Assembly (NCBI GenBank): GCA_017516885.1
Contig: JAFXAR010000043.1
Coordinates: 1-54,577, forward strand
Direction of reading: 5' to 3'
DNA from: Bacteroidaceae bacterium
GTDB taxonomy: Bacteria > Bacteroidota > Bacteroidia > Bacteroidales > Bacteroidaceae
Length of the DNA stretch: 54,577 nt
Part shown: positions 15,132-45,940 of the stretch, piece after piece
Position numbering within the stretch: position 1 is the first letter of the stretch
How the letters are laid out: every line of letters begins with the position of its first letter
Translations under genes and position numbers: made by a program
Notes under the pieces: generated by a model
Told to the model about the DNA's origin: nothing
Database searches by the model: none
The model's input: the letters and a program-made list of their open reading frames with translations, nothing else

Positions 15132-15377
15132 TTATTTCCCCTCGAAGCCGTGCAGTGTCTGCTGCAGCAGCTTGCCAATCTCATCGCCGTCCTGTTCTCG
15201 TTCCTTGCTTAGCTTTACCAGAAAATCGGCAGTGGTTTTCAGTGCCTGGTTTATTGTTCCTGGGTCTTCGCAGTCGTGCGTAAGCTTCTCTAATCTCTGT
15301 ATTAGTCTGTGAAATAGTGCAAGCGCTTCGTTGTGCACATCTTCAATTGTAACATTTTTATCACTTCTCTTTGCCAT
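15132..15377 (-). CDS. small helical hypothetical protein divergent from the phage-like block
   Basis: 81 residues, highly charged and predicted all-helical (two helices about 12-35 and 44-75, rich in Lys, Glu, Leu heptads). No HTH, metal site or membrane helix. It is transcribed away from the portal/polyvalent block and shares the 15373-15470 control region with it; its ATG lies inside the left arm of the first dyad. It abuts atpG tail to tail. It could be a regulator or small structural protein of the block; nothing in the sequence decides. Confidence 0.6.
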   Translation of the reverse strand: MAKRSDKNVTIEDVHNEALALFHRLIQRLEKLTHDCEDPGTINQALKTTADFLVKLSKEREQDGDEIGKLLQQTLHGFEGK

Positions 15378-15470
15378 GCTGTTGTCTTTGTTTGCGAAGA
15401 TAATGCAGCATGGCCTTTTTGTGTTTGCTGTAATGCCAAAAATGGCTGAATATGCATCAAAGTGGCATTA
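15373..15470. promoter_or_regulatory. divergent control region with two dyads of equal loop length
   Basis: Dyad 1: GCCATGCTG (15373-15381) and CAGCATGGC (15406-15414), 24 nt between arms; it covers the start codon of the minus gene and is followed on the plus strand by CTTTTT. Dyad 2: TAATGCCA (15431-15438) and TGGCATTA (15463-15470), also 24 nt between arms; its last base is the A of the ATG at 15470. Either they are operators or hairpins that hide both start codons. A TATCTTCGC element at 15404-15396 (minus) could start the 81-residue gene. Confidence 0.5.
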
Positions 15471-16045
15471 TGGCAACCTTGTCGCTGCTTGCCGGTATTT
15501 CTTTTGCGGCAAAAAAAGTTATGGGTACATCAAAATTTATGAACGGATTGAATGGGGCGCTCGGACTTTATGCCGGCGTGAAGGGAATGCTTGACTCTGC
15601 CGATGCAGCATCGAGGCAAAGAAAACTGTTGTCCGGCGCAAAGGCCGAAGAGGAGGGGTGGTTCAGAAGAAATTACTACAGTGACTTCTTAAACAACAGT
15701 TCGGCAAAGGCGGCTATAAAGAGGGTGGAAAACACTCTTCGCAGGCAGAATCAGCAGAACAGGGCTTACAATGCCATTAACGGCACTACGCATGAGCATG
15801 CGCTGGCGCGCAACAGACAGGGACTGAATTCGCTTGAGAATGTTTATACCAGTCTTGCAGCTATGGCCGATGATAAGAAGAATAGAATAGACAGCATTCA
15901 CAGACAGAACAGGAATGCACTGCTTTCGCAGGAGATGAATTACGCGCTTGGTGACGAGAAGAATTCGGCCTTGCTTGCAAAGAACGGACTGAATTTGCTG
16001 CAGAATGCTGTTCTTGGCGTAAACTGGGGAAAAGAGACACGATAA
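15470..16045 (+). CDS. phage-like helical protein with hydrophobic N-terminus
   Basis: 191 residues from the ATG at 15470 (an upstream ATG at 15452 adds six residues). It starts with a glycine/alanine-rich hydrophobic stretch (LSLLAGISFAAKKVMG, then LNGALGLYAGVKGML) and continues as polar helix with many Gln, Asn and Arg (RRQNQQNRAYNAI). This layout resembles virion ejection or pilot proteins that cross membranes, but no family is recognised. It is the first of four same-strand genes ending with the portal gene. No frame damage. Confidence 0.65.
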   Translation: MATLSLLAGISFAAKKVMGTSKFMNGLNGALGLYAGVKGMLDSADAASRQRKLLSGAKAEEEGWFRRNYYSDFLNNSSAKAAIKRVENTLRRQNQQNRAYNAINGTTHEHALARNRQGLNSLENVYTSLAAMADDKKNRIDSIHRQNRNALLSQEMNYALGDEKNSALLAKNGLNLLQNAVLGVNWGKETR

Positions 16046-16088
16046 GGCATGCTGCCTTTTTAGGAACTGACCGAAAATTCATGTTATT

Positions 16089-16526
16089 ATGAACGATACA
16101 ATAGACTACGACTATCTTAAAAGACTGTATGCCGAATCGCAGGAAAAGGACAAGGTGCGGCTTAGGGAGGCGAAGCGCAAACGCAATGTGGCCGCAATGG
16201 TTGACTTTGCCTCCAACCTTCTTACCCTTGCCGGCTACAGCAAAGGTGCAAGAGTGTCATTAGCAACAGACAATCTTCCAAAATATGAAAAACTCTACGA
16301 ACTGACAAAAGAGAGATACAATAATTCCATGCGTGACTACAATGGTGAAATAGCCAAAGATGGCCTCTTTGGGAGAGCGCGGAACGGAAACGGCGGCAAT
16401 AACAGCGGAAATGGTTCAAGGCGTATTCCATTCATTGCCGGATATAATGCAGCCGGAAAACCTAAACTTACATCGGGAATGTTTGAGCGTGCAGTGAATG
16501 ATTATTACAAGTTTAACAAAAGATAA
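16089..16526 (+). CDS. hypothetical protein of the phage-like block
   Basis: 145 residues. A basic, helical N-terminal half (KRLYAESQEKDKVRLREAKRKR), a short hydrophobic stretch (VDFASNLLTLAGY), then a Gly/Asn-rich flexible linker (residues about 98-112) and a C-terminal segment ending in NDYYKFNKR. No family recognised. It lies 43 nt after the previous gene and 16 nt before the 1495-residue gene, so it belongs to the same transcript. Linker plus short tail suggests a virion minor protein or adaptor. Confidence 0.6.
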   Translation: MNDTIDYDYLKRLYAESQEKDKVRLREAKRKRNVAAMVDFASNLLTLAGYSKGARVSLATDNLPKYEKLYELTKERYNNSMRDYNGEIAKDGLFGRARNGNGGNNSGNGSRRIPFIAGYNAAGKPKLTSGMFERAVNDYYKFNKR

Positions 16527-16542
16527 ATAATTAGATTACTTT

Positions 16543-19500
16543 ATGATTTTTGAGAATGACAACAGAAAGAGGAATGACAATTATGGCTATTCCGATTTGA
16601 ATTTTCGCAGCAACACCGATAGTGGTGCTGGTGCAAGTGATTATTTTAAGAGTGATTGGCCTGAACATGATTCAATGGAGCCAGGCGCTGAAGGTTCGCT
16701 GTATAATGGCCTTGGAGCTTCGCCGGCTTATGAGAGCGGCATGGGCTCAAGTGCTTTTCATAAGCCCGATGACCCTGTTAAGAGTAAAAAGTATTCAGGC
16801 TATGAAGGTGTCAATGCCGATGGTTATAAGCCTTATCCGCTAAAAAGGGAGGGCGATTCATATTATGGCAATTTTAGCAGACTGATTGCCGACGATGAAA
16901 CAAGGCGCAATTATGCGGTTTCGCCATGGGTGGTTGATGACAGGCTTGGGGATTATTACAAGAATGTGCTAAGCGCGTCATTAAAGAGAGCCCGCGCAAA
17001 GTCAAAGGAAAGGTCGCAGGAGGCGTACAGAAACTCCATGTCGGTTATTGGCGCTGACCCTGAAATTGCTATGGCCGATGCCATGAGGGTTGACAATCCT
17101 GTTGCCGACCTTGAAAGTGTAATGTCGCAAATAGACAATAATGAACTCAAAAAGAGGTTTAAGGGGGTTGCTGAGTTTTCGGGCTATGACCTTGATGACT
17201 ATATAGAAAAATTCGTGAAGCCTACGATTTACAATAAGCTTGCCGATGAGATGATTGACGAGAATGTTCCTAAAAGCAGTGTTGAATATCTTTTGCGCTC
17301 GTCAATAAACAACTCTCTTGCAGGAAAAATCTCCCAGACTAAACTTAATGCAATGTCGGACAACAATGTGCACAGCAACATGGAAATGAGCGCACTTGAA
17401 CGCTACAATCCGAACTGGGGCGAAGAGGTCCTTGCAGGCGTGGGCTCGCTTATTGTGGATTCGCCATTGTTCTCTGTTTTGGGAGCGGGCGCATCGGGCC
17501 TGGTGGGAAAGAGCGTGTTTTCGGCAACGGAGCGCGCTACCGCGCAGGTTATGGTGAATGGACTTGGCAGAGGCGTTACAGAGGAAGCGGCAAAGCAAGT
17601 GGCGAAGCGTGCAATACATGGCAAACTGAAAAACAGGATAATGCATAGTGCATTGACACAGGGACTTACATTGGGCTCTTATGACATTGCAAATAGTGTT
17701 GCCGATGATATTCTTATAAACAATGAAGTGAAAGTAGGCAAGGCTGCCTCTTCTTTTGTCAAGGGCATGGGCACTGGCATTGCTCTGGGTGCTGTGGGAA
17801 CTCCGCTGAGGGAGGCTGCCAACAAACTTAGAGGTGCAGTGAAAAAGAGCCTTGCTGCAGCCGGGGTGCTGTGTGCAGAATCGGGCGTATTCACAGGTGT
17901 GCAGACTGCTGACAAACTCCTTCATGGAGTGGAAATATCGCCAATTGACCTTGCAAATGACTTTGCCAAGAGCGCGGCTACTCTTGGAGTTATGAAATTG
18001 TCGCACTTGCCATTAAAAGGCGCCGATTATAAGCTTGACAAGTATGGAGAGCTAAAGAAAGGACTGAAACTCTCAATTTCGCAGAAGGTTGAATTGAGCG
18101 AGCTTGAAATGAATGTGGAGCAGTTCATGGATGCTATTGTGAATGAATTGAAACTGCCTACATTCGGCGGGAAAAGGAGCGAGTATATAAGGGAAACCTA
18201 TGCAAAGATTATGGCCGATGAAAATGTGTCACTTGCCACAAAATCGAAGCTGATGTTCCTCGTTGAGAATAAATTGACTTCAACGCCTCCTGTTCCGTTT
18301 GACTTTGATGCAAAGAGGAATGATAATGGAACATGGGATGTTATATTGTTCGATGCAGCCGGGAACAAGATTTCCACCCAGCACTTTGACCATGCCGGCA
18401 ATGCGAAGAGCCACATGCTTATGCAAAAGGCATTGCTGAGGCAAAACCGCATCTGTTTCTTTGAAAACGAGCTTACGCGAGGTGTGCAGTCGCAGAATTT
18501 TCTGTATCAGGCGGGGCGTTATGCAATGGAGAAGGGTGTTGACGTTGATAAGCTCGCCGATGCGCTTTACAAAAAGAGTACCGGTGAAAAACTTTCAGCC
18601 GGGGAGGATGCAATGATTGAAGAAATCATTGAGCGTTCGTCGTATACCAATACCGGAATGCTCAAGATGCTTGCCGATACACGAAATTATATTGAGGAGA
18701 AACACGACCTTCACCGCGGTAACCTCATGGAGGCCTTGGGGAAACCTTTTTTTAAGAATACCGTTGAACTGGACAAGGCTCTTGACGAGTATGAACGTGT
18801 TATAAGAGAGCATGTCAATGAACTGAAGAATGGCACAAGGAGTGACCTTGCCGAATATTACAAGAATGAGGGACTGGGCAGCGAGTACGCCGGCATGACA
18901 GCTGAAGAGGTCAGAAAGAAGGAGGCCGATGCTTATACTCATTGGTTCAGAACACGGAATGGTGACCGCCACAATGGAGAGAGTATGCCTATGGGCACTT
19001 ATTCAAACAGCGGGAGCACGCAGAAAGCTGTAGCAAGAGAAGCTGATGCTATAGCTGAAATTCCTGAAGGTGAGAACAAGTACATTACGGAACTTGACAG
19101 CGAGAGCAAGGCTAATCTGCCGCAGCATATCAAGGAATACGGCAAGCATGCCCAGGCTGTTGCCGATAAGTTAGGCGTTGATATTCATATCATATATTCC
19201 AAGAAGCAGATTCGGAAACCTGTGAGCGCAGAGGCCCAAGCGGAGTATAACACGATGCTCTGGGCCGAAGGGTGGATGGACAAGGATGGCATATATGTAA
19301 ATCTTTCAAACATGAACTCAAAGGAGATGGTTGAAAAGACTATGTTGCATGAGGTTGTTGGTCATAAGGGACTTTATGCGCTCTTTGGCCCGCATTTGAA
19401 CGAATTCCTGGAGGATGTTCTCAAGAAGGCAACACCGGATGTTGTCAGGGGCATAGAGAAACAGATGAAAAAATATGATGCCGGTGACAAGTATGTGGCT

Positions 19501-21030
19501 ATAGAGGAGTATCTTGCCCATTTGGCCGAGAGCACTGTGCTATCGCCGCAGGAGCGTTCCTTCTATTCAAAGGTAAAGGACTATATGAGGGATAAGCTTG
19601 GACAAATGGGACTTTACTCTGGAAGCAGGCGCAGAATAGGCGAGGAGGAACTCAGAAAACTGATGCAGCGTCATTGCGAGTATATTGTGAAGCGTACCAA
19701 CGCTGCCGATTATAGAAGAAGGGTGTTTGGCAGTTTTAAGGCTGCTCATGGCAACAATTCAACCTATTACGATAAAGAGGGGTATAACAGAAGAAAGGCC
19801 AGTGCGGTTGCTGACGGCAGTTTCCTCAATTCAACACCGCGTTATCTTAAGTTGAGCAAGATGCTGCATGCGTATGAATTCCTGCCGGAGGAGGGCAAGA
19901 AGCGAATCCGTGATATTTATGGTGTTTCAGATGAGTTTTTGAAGGGATATTTTGAGAAACGCTATAAGAAGCCCGACAGCGAAAATGGCAGGAACGGCGA
20001 ATTTCATATCATAAATGTAAACAAGGATGTTCCGCGAGAAAAGCCTGTTAATTATGAATCGATAGGGTCGTGGGGCGGTTCGGTTGGCCTGGGCAAAAAA
20101 CTCTTCAAGAACCCTATTCAGAGAATACTTAACCTAAAGAGCCCGAATTATGCCCGATTGTATCAGTCTATAGTTGAAAATAAGGAAAAGGAACACGATT
20201 CTTATGACACGCAGATGTATGACCAGCTTACTAATATGGCTTTGGAAGATGGCTATAAAATTTACCTGAAGGATGTTGTAAATGACAATGCCTTCTTCAG
20301 CAAGTATCCCGAACTCTCGGGCATGCCGGTTGAGTTCAGCCGCTCAGTGCCTTTCCCTGCCTATTACGACAAGGGAAAGAGCAGAATGCTTATAAATAGC
20401 AGAATGATGAGGTCGGAGAAAATGGATACATATCTCATGGGTGCAATGGAGATGGCTGCTAAAGAGTATGACAGAGAGCGCAATGAGGTTGAAACCGGTC
20501 TTGACGAAATAAATGTGGGATTGAAAGAGAAATATGAGAATGCAGTGGATGTGGCAAAAAAGCTGCGCTCAATGCAAAAGAGCATGCCTTTGTTTGACCC
20601 TAACAGTACGCTCAATGAAATGTTTGAGAAGGAGTACGGATTTGAACCGGCTGAATTCCTGAGGCGCTTCCCTAATATTGACGACTATTTCATTTACAGA
20701 GTGGCCCAGGATTTTCCGGGTGCAAGGCCTTCATTGGGCAACGCTCTCCCAGAGGGCAAGAATGCTGATGGGGAAATAAGCAGTTACAGGAGATATTTCC
20801 AAGGACCTTATGAGATAATTGTCGATGCTGTAAGGAAGAATAACAGGAATGGCGTTCTGAAACTGAGGGATGCCGGTTTGCGCAGTTCATCGCCTTTCCT
20901 TACTCCGCTTGATGAAAAGGAAATTGACAGGGAGTTCCAGCGCTACTTGAATGATGAGGGCTACGATGATGCCGGCGGATGGAACAAAGGGGTGCTTGAA
21001 AGATTTAAGGACAACAGAACCGATAACTAA
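16543..21030 (+). CDS. 1495-residue phage-type polyvalent protein with zinc metallopeptidase domain
   Basis: The largest frame of the window, unbroken. Residues 1-290: low-similarity, Gly/Tyr-rich then helical. About 296-325, 402-425 and 436-455: three Gly/Ala-rich hydrophobic segments like those of ejected virion proteins. About 870-1090: a zincin-like domain with HEVVGH at 936-941 (His936, Glu937, His940) in MLHEVVGHKGLYALFG and a likely third ligand Glu988 or Glu989 in EEYLAHLAE; this is the hallmark of peptidase domains in large polyvalent proteins of phages. The last 400 residues are unrecognised and helical. It starts 16 nt after the previous gene and ends 8 nt before the portal gene. 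Such proteins are thought to enter the host with the DNA. Cellular location and substrate are unknown here. Confidence 0.75.
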   Translation: MIFENDNRKRNDNYGYSDLNFRSNTDSGAGASDYFKSDWPEHDSMEPGAEGSLYNGLGASPAYESGMGSSAFHKPDDPVKSKKYSGYEGVNADGYKPYPLKREGDSYYGNFSRLIADDETRRNYAVSPWVVDDRLGDYYKNVLSASLKRARAKSKERSQEAYRNSMSVIGADPEIAMADAMRVDNPVADLESVMSQIDNNELKKRFKGVAEFSGYDLDDYIEKFVKPTIYNKLADEMIDENVPKSSVEYLLRSSINNSLAGKISQTKLNAMSDNNVHSNMEMSALERYNPNWGEEVLAGVGSLIVDSPLFSVLGAGASGLVGKSVFSATERATAQVMVNGLGRGVTEEAAKQVAKRAIHGKLKNRIMHSALTQGLTLGSYDIANSVADDILINNEVKVGKAASSFVKGMGTGIALGAVGTPLREAANKLRGAVKKSLAAAGVLCAESGVFTGVQTADKLLHGVEISPIDLANDFAKSAATLGVMKLSHLPLKGADYKLDKYGELKKGLKLSISQKVELSELEMNVEQFMDAIVNELKLPTFGGKRSEYIRETYAKIMADENVSLATKSKLMFLVENKLTSTPPVPFDFDAKRNDNGTWDVILFDAAGNKISTQHFDHAGNAKSHMLMQKALLRQNRICFFENELTRGVQSQNFLYQAGRYAMEKGVDVDKLADALYKKSTGEKLSAGEDAMIEEIIERSSYTNTGMLKMLADTRNYIEEKHDLHRGNLMEALGKPFFKNTVELDKALDEYERVIREHVNELKNGTRSDLAEYYKNEGLGSEYAGMTAEEVRKKEADAYTHWFRTRNGDRHNGESMPMGTYSNSGSTQKAVAREADAIAEIPEGENKYITELDSESKANLPQHIKEYGKHAQAVADKLGVDIHIIYSKKQIRKPVSAEAQAEYNTMLWAEGWMDKDGIYVNLSNMNSKEMVEKTMLHEVVGHKGLYALFGPHLNEFLEDVLKKATPDVVRGIEKQMKKYDAGDKYVAIEEYLAHLAESTVLSPQERSFYSKVKDYMRDKLGQMGLYSGSRRRIGEEELRKLMQRHCEYIVKRTNAADYRRRVFGSFKAAHGNNSTYYDKEGYNRRKASAVADGSFLNSTPRYLKLSKMLHAYEFLPEEGKKRIRDIYGVSDEFLKGYFEKRYKKPDSENGRNGEFHIINVNKDVPREKPVNYESIGSWGGSVGLGKKLFKNPIQRILNLKSPNYARLYQSIVENKEKEHDSYDTQMYDQLTNMALEDGYKIYLKDVVNDNAFFSKYPELSGMPVEFSRSVPFPAYYDKGKSRMLINSRMMRSEKMDTYLMGAMEMAAKEYDRERNEVETGLDEINVGLKEKYENAVDVAKKLRSMQKSMPLFDPNSTLNEMFEKEYGFEPAEFLRRFPNIDDYFIYRVAQDFPGARPSLGNALPEGKNADGEISSYRRYFQGPYEIIVDAVRKNNRNGVLKLRDAGLRSSSPFLTPLDEKEIDREFQRYLNDEGYDDAGGWNKGVLERFKDNRTDN

Positions 21031-21038
21031 AAGCTGTT

Positions 21039-23066
21039 ATGAATAAATTTCTTGACAAAAGGGTAAAGGCAGAGGCTGCCAAAGGCAAGGAAAGCAAGGC
21101 GCAAAATGAGGGCGTTGCTGCTGATTTTCTTGCCGAGTGCGCCTCGTGCTGGAACTCGCTTGACGAGGCGCGGCGCAAAATGCGCCGCAGCCTCATGTAC
21201 AGTTACGGCGACCAGTGGGGCGATTATGTTACCGACCCTGATACTCTTGCAAGGATAACCGAGGGCGAGCTTATTAAGAAGAACGGCAAGGTGCCGCTGA
21301 AAAATAATATGATAGCTCCCATACTCAGCAATATTGATGGTCAGCTTAGACAGAATCTTATGCGTCCGGTTTGCGTTGCCCGCGACCAGAGCGAGGCGCG
21401 TGTGGGCGAAATGATGTCCATTGCAATAGAGTATGTACACGATATAAACGAGGTTGAGGAACTTGATGCCGATAGCATGAGGATGCTGCTTAACGGAGGA
21501 ATGACTGCGCAGAGAATTGAATTTGGCGTGAACCCCTCAAAGGACAAGCGCGATGTGTGGATACATTCAGTTAATCCCTCGCGGCTTTTCTTTAATACAA
21601 ATCTTGAGGATGTGCGAATGTGGGATGTTACATGCGTGGGAGAATTGCTTGACTTGCCGCTTGAAGATGTTCTTGCCCATTTTGGAACTACGCCAGAGAA
21701 AAAGCAGCGTATCAAGGAAATATATGGTTCGCTCTCGCCTTCGGTGTTTGGCGGCAGCCGTGCAATGCAGGGCGAAGAGAGCCGAAACCTCTCTTTCTAC
21801 ATAGCGTCGCACTCATGGCTGTGCCGTGTCATTCTTGGCTGGAAACTTGAATCGCGCGATGCCTATCGTTGGAATGATACAAGAAACGGCAGCTGGGGAT
21901 ACATGCCTTATAATGACGAAAGCAAAAAGGAGATTGAGGCAGAGAATGAGCGGAGAAGGGCTGAGAGCGGAAAGAAAGGCCGCAGCGATGATGACCTGCT
22001 GCTTGTGGAATATGAATTTGCTACCGAGCGTTACTGGTATTACAGATATATGACCCCATTTGGTGATATTCTGCAGGAGGGGCGCAGCCCCTATTGGCAT
22101 GGAGAGCATAACTATGTGTTGCACCTCTATCCTCTTGTACAGGGCAAATTGGGTAATTTTGTAGAGCAGTTTATTGACCAGCAGCGTGCTATAAACCGAA
22201 CCGCTACGCTCATAGACTTCATACGCAGCACATCGTCAAAAGGCGTGCTTGTGGTTGATGACGATGCTTTTGAGAGCATGACACGCGAGGAGATTGTTGA
22301 TGAATATGTGCGCTATAATGGTGTGCTGTTTGTGAAGCTTAAGCCGGGACAGAGCATTGATGGAGTGGTGCGGCAATATAACAGCGGTGCAGCCATTGCC
22401 GGCGACTTTGAACTGCTGAGTCTTCAAATGCGCCTTATAAATGAAATTTCGGGCGTAAACTCAGCAATGCAGGGCCAAGCGCCAAAGGCCGGCACTCCGG
22501 CATCGCTCTATGCCCAGCAGACACATAATTCCTCATTGAACCTTAAGGGGGTGTTCGATAGTTTCAGGACTTTCCGCCGGCGCAGGGACTGCAAGGTAAT
22601 GAAGACAATACAGCAGTTTTATACTGAGGTGCAATATATTGACCTTGCCGGGAAGGAGTACAGTGCCGAAGCAAAGTGGTACGACCCGGCGAAAGTGCAG
22701 AATTGCGAGTTTGACTTGACGATTTCCGAAGGCTACAATACTCCTGCATACCAGTTGCTTGCCAATGATTTCCTTATGGAACTTTTCCGTGCTCGGGCAA
22801 TCGATGTCAAGACTATGCTTGAGAACAGTTCCTATCCTTTTGCTTCAAAGATTCTTGAGGCCATTAGGCGGAACGAGCAACAGGCAGCGCAGGGCAAGCC
22901 AATGGAAGGAATCCCGCCACAGTTGCTTGAACAGCTGGCTGCAGGCGGAGCGGGGCAGCAGATACCGGTGCAGCCGTCGGTTGAGGGTGTGCAGAATGCA
23001 ATGCAGGAAACAGTTCCTCAAGATGCTGCGGCCGGCAGCACTGCGGAAATAATGCAAGAACTATAA
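21039..23066 (+). CDS. P22-like phage portal protein
   Basis: 675 residues. The order of segments is that of P22-type portals (about 725 residues in P22): an N-terminal helix pair with WNSLDEARRKMRRSLMYSYG, then NNMIAPILSNIDGQLRQN, VNPSRLFFN (the wing strand), a hydrophilic mid-part, the long helix with EQFIDQQRAINRTATLIDFIR and a NEISGVNSAMQGQAPKAGTPASL loop, and a Gln/Ala-rich C-terminus. In a virion twelve copies form the DNA channel and dock the terminase. Here no terminase, capsid, scaffold, tail or integrase gene is adjacent: atpG lies on one side and ligA on the other. The frame is complete and base use equals that of the host genes, so it has been kept for long. Confidence 0.85.
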   Translation: MNKFLDKRVKAEAAKGKESKAQNEGVAADFLAECASCWNSLDEARRKMRRSLMYSYGDQWGDYVTDPDTLARITEGELIKKNGKVPLKNNMIAPILSNIDGQLRQNLMRPVCVARDQSEARVGEMMSIAIEYVHDINEVEELDADSMRMLLNGGMTAQRIEFGVNPSKDKRDVWIHSVNPSRLFFNTNLEDVRMWDVTCVGELLDLPLEDVLAHFGTTPEKKQRIKEIYGSLSPSVFGGSRAMQGEESRNLSFYIASHSWLCRVILGWKLESRDAYRWNDTRNGSWGYMPYNDESKKEIEAENERRRAESGKKGRSDDDLLLVEYEFATERYWYYRYMTPFGDILQEGRSPYWHGEHNYVLHLYPLVQGKLGNFVEQFIDQQRAINRTATLIDFIRSTSSKGVLVVDDDAFESMTREEIVDEYVRYNGVLFVKLKPGQSIDGVVRQYNSGAAIAGDFELLSLQMRLINEISGVNSAMQGQAPKAGTPASLYAQQTHNSSLNLKGVFDSFRTFRRRRDCKVMKTIQQFYTEVQYIDLAGKEYSAEAKWYDPAKVQNCEFDLTISEGYNTPAYQLLANDFLMELFRARAIDVKTMLENSSYPFASKILEAIRRNEQQAAQGKPMEGIPPQLLEQLAAGGAGQQIPVQPSVEGVQNAMQETVPQDAAAGSTAEIMQEL

Positions 23067-23071
23067 TGACG

Positions 23072-23104
23072 TTGGCATGAGGGTGAATGTCACTCTCATG
23101 CCAA
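23072..23104 (+). terminator. hairpin ending the phage-like block
   Basis: A 15-bp stem TTGGCATGAGGGTGA / TCACTCTCATGCCAA with one G-T wobble and a 3-nt loop, only 5 nt after the portal stop; A/T-rich DNA follows. It closes the block as one transcription unit. Confidence 0.8.
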
Positions 23105-23129
23105 TTGTGTAAAAATAAATTTTTACCCA

Positions 23130-25435
<2,306 letters not shown>

Positions 25436-45424: not shown

Positions 45425-45940
45425 TTATTCCCTATACCAGGATGCATACATTATATAATCCTTTGCTATGCGTTCGACAATATCCTTCTGCTGCTCCGTG
45501 CTTACCTCCTTGATTTTCCTTGCCGGAACGCCGGCGTATATCCACCCGCCTTCAACATGCATTCCTGAGGTCACAAGTGCATTTGCCGCAACAATTGCGC
45601 CGCTTTCCACAACAGCATTGTCAAGTATTGTAGCTCCCATGCCTATCAGGCTGTTGCTCTTTATTTCCGCACCATGTATGGTGGCATTATGGCCTATTGA
45701 GACATTGTCGCCTATTTTGGTTACGGAACGCTGGTACAGAGTATGTATTACAGCGCCATCCTGTATGTTCACATTGTTGCCAACTGTTATTGTATTAACA
45801 TCGCCACGAAGTACTGCGCCAAACCACACGGAACAGTTATTGCCAATTGTGACATCTCCAATGACAGCGGCATTGTCGGCTAAATAGCAGTTCTCTCCAA
45901 TAATTGGCTTCTGTCCTCTTACTTCCTTTATTATCGCCAT
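45425..45940 (-). CDS. gamma carbonic anhydrase family protein
   Basis: 171 residues, left-handed beta-helix. Hexapeptide repeats (IGDVTIGNNCSVWFGAVLRGD) and the metal histidines in VIHTL and IGHNATIHG are present. Proteins of this group are often called YrdA/PaaY-like; carbonic anhydrase activity is not certain. Its start lies 5 nt after the helicase stop, so it ends the lon-tgt-lpt-helicase operon. Confidence 0.92.
   Translation of the reverse strand: MAIIKEVRGQKPIIGENCYLADNAAVIGDVTIGNNCSVWFGAVLRGDVNTITVGNNVNIQDGAVIHTLYQRSVTKIGDNVSIGHNATIHGAEIKSNSLIGMGATILDNAVVESGAIVAANALVTSGMHVEGGWIYAGVPARKIKEVSTEQQKDIVERIAKDYIMYASWYRE

Follow-up and report, generated by a model that had tools for sequence, protein, structure and literature searches.

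A phage portal operon beside ligA as a likely part of a dispersed, host-inherited system resembling a gene transfer agent in Bacteroidales

Why should a Bacteroidaceae bacterium keep a phage portal gene among its housekeeping genes? The question is raised by a stretch of 54,577 nucleotides (contig JAFXAR010000043.1 of assembly GCA_017516885.1; the window, hereafter, means this whole stretch), in which a block at positions 15,132 to 23,104 comprises four same-strand genes, P197, P145, BIG and a portal gene, and a divergent gene of 81 residues, P81. The first-pass annotation placed these open reading frames (ORFs) correctly and took them for an isolated portal module without terminase, capsid or tail genes. 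That description is true of the window and untrue of the genome, which carries such genes on contigs C2 and C10. Based on gene identities, genus-wide presence, selection, separate loci and a shared promoter, the block is probably one operon of a system that derives from a podovirus, is inherited with the host genome and acts in the manner of a gene transfer agent (GTA).

The large terminase (TerL) of the window's genome is encoded on contig C2. On contig C10 a gene for a 156-aa protein faces a row encoding a scaffold-like protein, the capsid protein, a 143-aa protein, an adaptor, proteins of 94, 161 and 136 aa, and a 949-aa tail nozzle. The 161-aa protein is holin-like (PF05105, E=0.0017, below the cut-off) and the 136-aa protein has, by eye, a lipoprotein-like start. 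Portal, adaptor and nozzle together form a podovirus-type tail set, as in short-tailed phages, with the nozzle and adaptor profiles matching no PDB sequence. The capsid is identified through profiles: it matches PF17236 at only E=0.019 (below the cut-off) and phrog_26635, a family with no function given, at 1.6e-22, its own profile reaches a solved VP1 capsid at 1.9e-13, and its phage homologue (L040) matches PF17236 at E=1.3e-34.

The same parts recur across the genus. Our sample comprised 44 same-genus genomes, and as these are 55–98% complete, absences are weak evidence. Searches for TerL and the head and tail genes used lineage profiles made from aligned neighbour genes of clustered relatives (L054, L057, L165, L166 and others). 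The portal was found in 41 of the 44 genomes, a recurrence beyond chance, BIG in 42, the capsid in 43 and the nozzle family in 42 (as a fragment only in G027); TerL matched in 43, which becomes 42 once G016, with only a prophage copy, is set aside. Pfam Terminase_6N had matched a single genome (G003, in three places), a false lead towards a genus without terminase that was discarded. In the head loci of eight other genomes, TerL, capsid, adaptor and the 949-aa family were present in all eight, and scaffold relatives were found in the same loci. Capsid and portal share a contig in 11 genus genomes, 8–31 kb apart in ten and 103 kb apart in G002, while in G039 the gap would be at least 63 kb were the two contigs directly adjacent. 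The 949-aa gene of G025 and that of G002 lie on a further contig, flanked by host genes. Two side observations concern these loci. Downstream of the nozzle gene (L250, G000:C10, 8779–19279), a gene for a PD-(D/E)XK nuclease protein and, by eye, AddA- and SbcCD-like genes, i.e. recombination genes, adjoin the head locus. Further, some genomes carry a clustered prophage-like set in addition to the dispersed one, at G009:C6 (L031, L168), G016:C128 (L033, L268), G194:C32 (L353) and G291:C77; in G009 the tail gene of the phrog_32516 family is split over two frames.

What ties the separate loci together? The same element, GCAACCT-N16-TNNTTYYTTTGC, precedes P197 in the portal locus and the scaffold gene in the head locus. 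The window holds a single match to this pattern at up to two mismatches (chance 0.14), and the second exact copy in the genome lies at C10:878, before the scaffold/capsid genes. Across the 44 genomes the exact pattern occurs 36 times (22 before scaffold/capsid, 13 before P197/BIG, one elsewhere), and 48 more matches carry one mismatch, 17 of them at portal or head loci. When up to one mismatch is allowed, 31 of the 44 genomes have one or both of the two promoters, and 21 have both. No exact match was found in 1.46 Mb of phage and prophage loci. Before P197 the element forms half of an inverted repeat that also faces P81, an arrangement seen in 31 of 37 genus loci against a shuffle mean of 0.7; this repeat is likely the binding site of an activator. 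We read the shared promoter as a regulon joining the loci. The only exact match outside both loci (L337, G009:C47:10865–10899) precedes a 423-aa ORF without a Pfam match and lacks the TGTCATT half; this ORF is a possible further member.

Within the genus the block moves as a unit: of 40 loci, 36 have P197 and 38 have BIG upstream of the portal gene. The inheritance of the phage-derived genes resembles that of a host gene when co-diversification is judged against one core gene, LigA, with rank correlations of protein distances of rho 0.78 for TerL and 0.81 for the capsid (18 genomes) and 0.64 for the portal (22). TerL and capsid distances correlate with each other at 0.73 (40 genomes), and none of 500 permutations reached any observed distance correlation. 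The portals of G003 and G011 (no linked LigA contig) and of G021 and G027 (cut by contig ends) were left out of the comparisons. The phage-derived genes are under purifying selection. Among pairs with dS under 1.5, median dN/dS was 0.06 for the capsid (120 pairs), 0.10 for TerL (41) and 0.11 for the portal (23, maximum 0.21), compared with 0.05 for LigA (7). Frames are open in all 40 capsids and in 39 of 40 TerL genes, two more TerL genes being cut by contig ends. The first-pass proposal of a domesticated block rather than a decaying prophage is thus borne out by near genus-wide presence, kept gene order and low dN/dS, and host-like base use was likewise found, the G+C of the block (0.44–0.50) being similar to that of its flanks.

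The features of the block, by position in the window, are as follows.

15132..15377, minus strand: P81, 81 aa, a small, helical-looking protein divergent from the block, role unassigned (ORF list).
15423..15478, no strand: inverted repeat GTTTGCTGTAATGCCA ... TGGCATTATGGCAACC between P81 and P197 (read from the sequence).
15473..15507, plus strand: shared promoter, exact match to the pattern.
15521..16045, plus strand: P197, 174 aa from the start after the promoter (longer ORF, 15452–16045).
16089..16526, plus strand: P145, 145 aa, function unassigned (ORF list).
16543..21030, plus strand: BIG, 1495 aa, with an HExxxH motif, a trimmed relative of a phage giant polyvalent protein.
21039..23066, plus strand: portal protein of P22 type, 675 aa (Pfam and PHROG profiles).
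23071..23106, plus strand: hairpin closing the block (−25.8 kcal/mol, z −6.95).

The P22-like nature of the portal, noted at first pass, is confirmed by PF16510 P22_portal (E=8.9e-34) and phrog_156 (E=1.5e-56), and the family profile reaches the solved portal 8jov (E=1.7e-19). Other early descriptions were kept in part. The first gene, given as 191 residues, exists as an ORF, but its start is more likely at 15521 because the promoter sits inside the longer frame. The strong terminator is indeed a stable hairpin (none of 200 shuffles was equally stable), yet it is not among the calls of a terminator scan of the window because no T run follows it. The HEVVGH of the supposed zincin domain lies at residue 936 of BIG; its spacing is HExxxH, whereas the canonical motif is HExxH, and no Pfam model matched BIG. 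The spacing is kept in all 38 aligned genus BIG proteins and HExxGH in 30. P81 (no Pfam match above the cut-off, no PHROG match) is present in 37 of 39 genus portal loci and in none of the phage loci compared. P197, also without a Pfam or PHROG match, is a putative ejected or internal virion protein whose family occurs, by alignment, in prophage L038 and in Barnesiella-type loci. Relatives of P145 are recognisable in only 14 of 40 genus loci at E<=1e-8, so P145 appears to be fast evolving. Next to the block, LigA downstream is confirmed by Pfam, and the genes on the other side are those we take to be AtpA and AtpG. Between block and ligA (23130–23420), TTAACTATGTTGAATTCTC...GTTATGCTCG occurs in two copies followed by more repetitive sequence. 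P171 (window 45425–45940), a hexapeptide-repeat protein adjoining the block in 9 of 40 loci, was considered as a member and taken as a neighbour.

Phage relatives greatly exceed BIG in length. The one in L165 has 3265 aa and contains SNF2 helicase, LPD3 and ART-PolyVal domains, and that of the phage BS-TP4 has 5391 aa, compared with 1100–1900 aa in the genus and ~770 aa in a second, Barnesiella-type lineage. One scanned BIG of each kind (genus and Barnesiella type) gave no Pfam match. We suggest that BIG, a putative ejected protein, lost the parts for cell takeover and kept those for DNA entry.

Is the dispersed system confined to one genus? A wider, evenly drawn sample of 295 Bacteroidales genomes gave TerL matches in 24, the window's own included. 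Portal and capsid accompany TerL in 21 of the other 23, and 19 have a nozzle-profile match, weak in G085 and G294. TerL and capsid are separated in 18 of the 21, lying more than 30 kb apart in six and on different contigs in 12, the latter being, in draft genomes, weak evidence by itself. The distance is 13 kb in G147, whereas in G079 and G198 the two genes lie close to each other. On closed chromosomes the set spans 297 kb in G350 and 52 kb in G317. Gene order in the G350 portal locus matches that of named Barnesiella contigs (L184, L189, L190). In G350 another pattern, TGCCAYAA-N19-NNNNTTTGC, stands exactly before portal, P197, scaffold and TerL, and with one mismatch before the nozzle gene; a 300 kb background holds no exact match and two with one mismatch, and among spacers of 10 to 29 only 19 gives matches. 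Since it was in these stretches that the pattern first came to notice, it is fairly tested only on the background and on named Barnesiella contigs; five of the six contigs examined carry a G350-type pattern before portal or P197 (L185 has none). The common element of G317, AT-rich TTTTATAWTTAT, has four sites in 55 kb of its loci and one in 100 kb elsewhere, a weaker case than G350. In Barnesiella-type genomes, a WG-repeat protein (~246 aa) precedes P197-P145-BIG (L346, 8913–9653; L184, 14365–15111) and may be part of the system there.

The portal and TerL phylogenies, quick trees with SH-aLRT support only, nest the window's genus (99) within a group of clustered phages and prophages, its sister being a same-genus prophage (97 and 96), and assign the second lineage to a different group (99 in either tree). 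From the genus, the portal tree included eight loci and the window; among other loci, 12 rows were omitted as short or surplus. Three members of its second group (L192, L201, L203) have TerL or capsid within 10 kb. The separate positions of the two lineages imply at least two domestications, unless genes were replaced later. Among 80 viral contigs with a related portal, TerL or capsid lies in the piece in 71, is absent from it in two, and seven are too short; among 77 bacterial contigs the counts are 14, 39 and 24 (L182 gave no portal ORF in this classification). On balance we favour the view that Bacteroidales turned the same short-tailed phage lineage into GTAs at least twice, each time as dispersed operons under a new, lineage-specific promoter, so that entire genera of gut bacteria would carry a host-run DNA exchange machine missed by prophage finders. 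A more distant set with a shorter portal (frames of 461–493 aa) was seen in G085:C14/C23, G198:C13 and G294:C11, the terminase of G294 lying 955 kb from capsid and portal on one contig; it is possibly a third domesticated lineage.

How does this system compare with those already known? RcGTA is siphovirus-like, and, judged by the families seen here, the alphaproteobacterial GTAs differ from the present system in phage ancestry. They share with it, according to PMC9662315, phage-derived genes over several loci, vertical inheritance and host control. The same paper defines a GTA by six criteria. On gene content, homologues of portal, TerL, capsid and nozzle point to particle proteins derived from a tailed phage; the genes are fully endogenised over several loci, in the genus and in the second lineage; and inheritance is mostly vertical, at rho 0.64–0.81 against one core gene and with signs of some exchange. 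The set spans 297 kb in G350 and over 103 kb in G002, against 64–68 kb for related phage genomes, which suggests that the system may be unable to package itself fully. The two remaining criteria are encapsidation of mostly random host DNA and its delivery to other cells. The contiguous, excisable genome of a temperate phage, with integration and replication genes, was not seen in the loci read, where head and portal genes lie apart with host genes between; no search for att sites was made. The nearest known system is FpGTA of Faecalibacterium (PMC12946183), which is likewise podovirus-like, present genus-wide and spread over separate loci of one chromosome (two operons 125 kb apart in one strain). 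FpGTA belongs to another phylum and its particles and packaged DNA were demonstrated, whereas here both are presumed from the genes. In layout, one FpGTA operon encodes terminase, portal, scaffold and capsid, and the second encodes further structural and lysis proteins (PMC12946183); in the present system the portal and ejection genes lie apart from those for terminase and capsid, and a common promoter ties the loci. Bacteroides phage BS-TP4 (PQ571277) and prophages L165, L166 and L168 have related portal, terminase, scaffold and capsid genes, with BIG adjoining portal and scaffold adjoining capsid; they differ in that the genes are clustered in one genome (64–68 kb in three phages), the polyvalent protein is far longer and the promoter is absent.

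If the block works within a GTA, an activator would bind the GCAACC element, and the portal/ejection and head/tail operons, kept apart, would be switched on jointly by their common promoter, perhaps in few cells. Capsids would then assemble on the portal, the terminase would fill them with chromosomal DNA and the holin-like protein would aid cell lysis; P197, P145 and BIG would exit with the DNA and aid its entry into a sister cell. Particles, packaging of host DNA, lysis and delivery are presumed steps, and membership among the GTAs is provisional.

Several observations weigh against this reading. The neighbourhood of the block varies: the claim that it is fixed between ATP synthase and ligA applies here and in part of the genus, but ligA follows in only 23 of 40 loci, in 22 of them within 1 kb. 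At least nine loci show no ligA in a right flank of 8 kb or more, and the block has AtpG before it in 12 of 40. The block is therefore kept, and its address is not. TerL and portal distances correlate only at 0.50 (35 genomes), and G004 and G020 differ less in phage genes (dS 0.21–0.28) than in LigA (0.52), so some genes may have passed between species. TerL of G018 has an internal stop. Five of eight other head loci contain the holin-like gene (the piece of G025 ended before its place), and no endolysin was identified. Further, 31 one-mismatch promoter matches do not precede these genes, compared with three in all for a reversed control. Two of them (G037, G030) lie in the same intergenic stretches but face the opposite direction; the remainder, which exceed the control, may be ordinary promoters or further members. 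Finally, the capsid might still take up one special region of DNA.

Among other explanations, it is unlikely, though credible, that the host keeps the particles to serve a different end, for example PBSX-like killing of rivals or the delivery of protein by BIG; in that case host DNA may be packaged without gene transfer being the selected function. The genomic evidence would be the same, and BIG (30–44% identity, against 73–82% for the portal) and the nozzle diverge far more rapidly than capsid and portal do, as expected of parts that meet other cells. However, the whole genus retains a portal and a terminase whose motifs are intact, and a DNA-free killing particle would not need them. Passive inheritance of a defective, fragmented and decaying ancient prophage is very unlikely: the genes do come from a phage lineage with clustered prophages in the same genus (G009:C6, G016:C128), but dN/dS of 0.06–0.11, open capsid and TerL frames and a promoter kept across species speak against decay. 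An active phage, or a phage-plasmid, whose genome is unusually split could draw on the full complement of structural genes and on the existence of related free phages. Its parts would, however, lie up to 297 kb apart on the closed chromosome of G350 and 103 kb apart in G002, against genomes of 64–68 kb in three matching phages, and host genes lie between them. The loci read, not all of which were profile-scanned, showed no recognisable gene for integrase or replication, and we regard this reading as highly improbable. The satellite using other phages' heads and the defence poisoning phage portal rings, both put forward when the window showed only portal and ejection genes, were dropped as scarcely credible once capsid and terminase appeared, since the genome itself supplies capsid, scaffold, terminase and nozzle genes from that phage lineage, controlled by the block's promoter, which leaves no reason for either. 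Head genes beyond the window had been named as evidence against the first-pass reading; they exist, but their form points to a GTA rather than a prophage.

Known GTAs come mainly from Alphaproteobacteria and Brachyspira, with few others, according to PMC9662315 and PMC12946183. Our literature search, which covered few subscription papers and no preprints, found no Bacteroidota GTA named in a title or abstract; the abstract of PMC12946183 mentions lateral transduction in Bacteroides. As the dispersed layout is unlike that of a prophage, such systems may be under-counted. If the GTA reading is true, a heritable GTA in a major gut phylum would be a route of transfer beside conjugation and phages. 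Further, two parallel domestications with parallel promoter capture would offer a way to study the conversion of a phage into an organ of its host, and some of the hosts (Barnesiella) can be grown.

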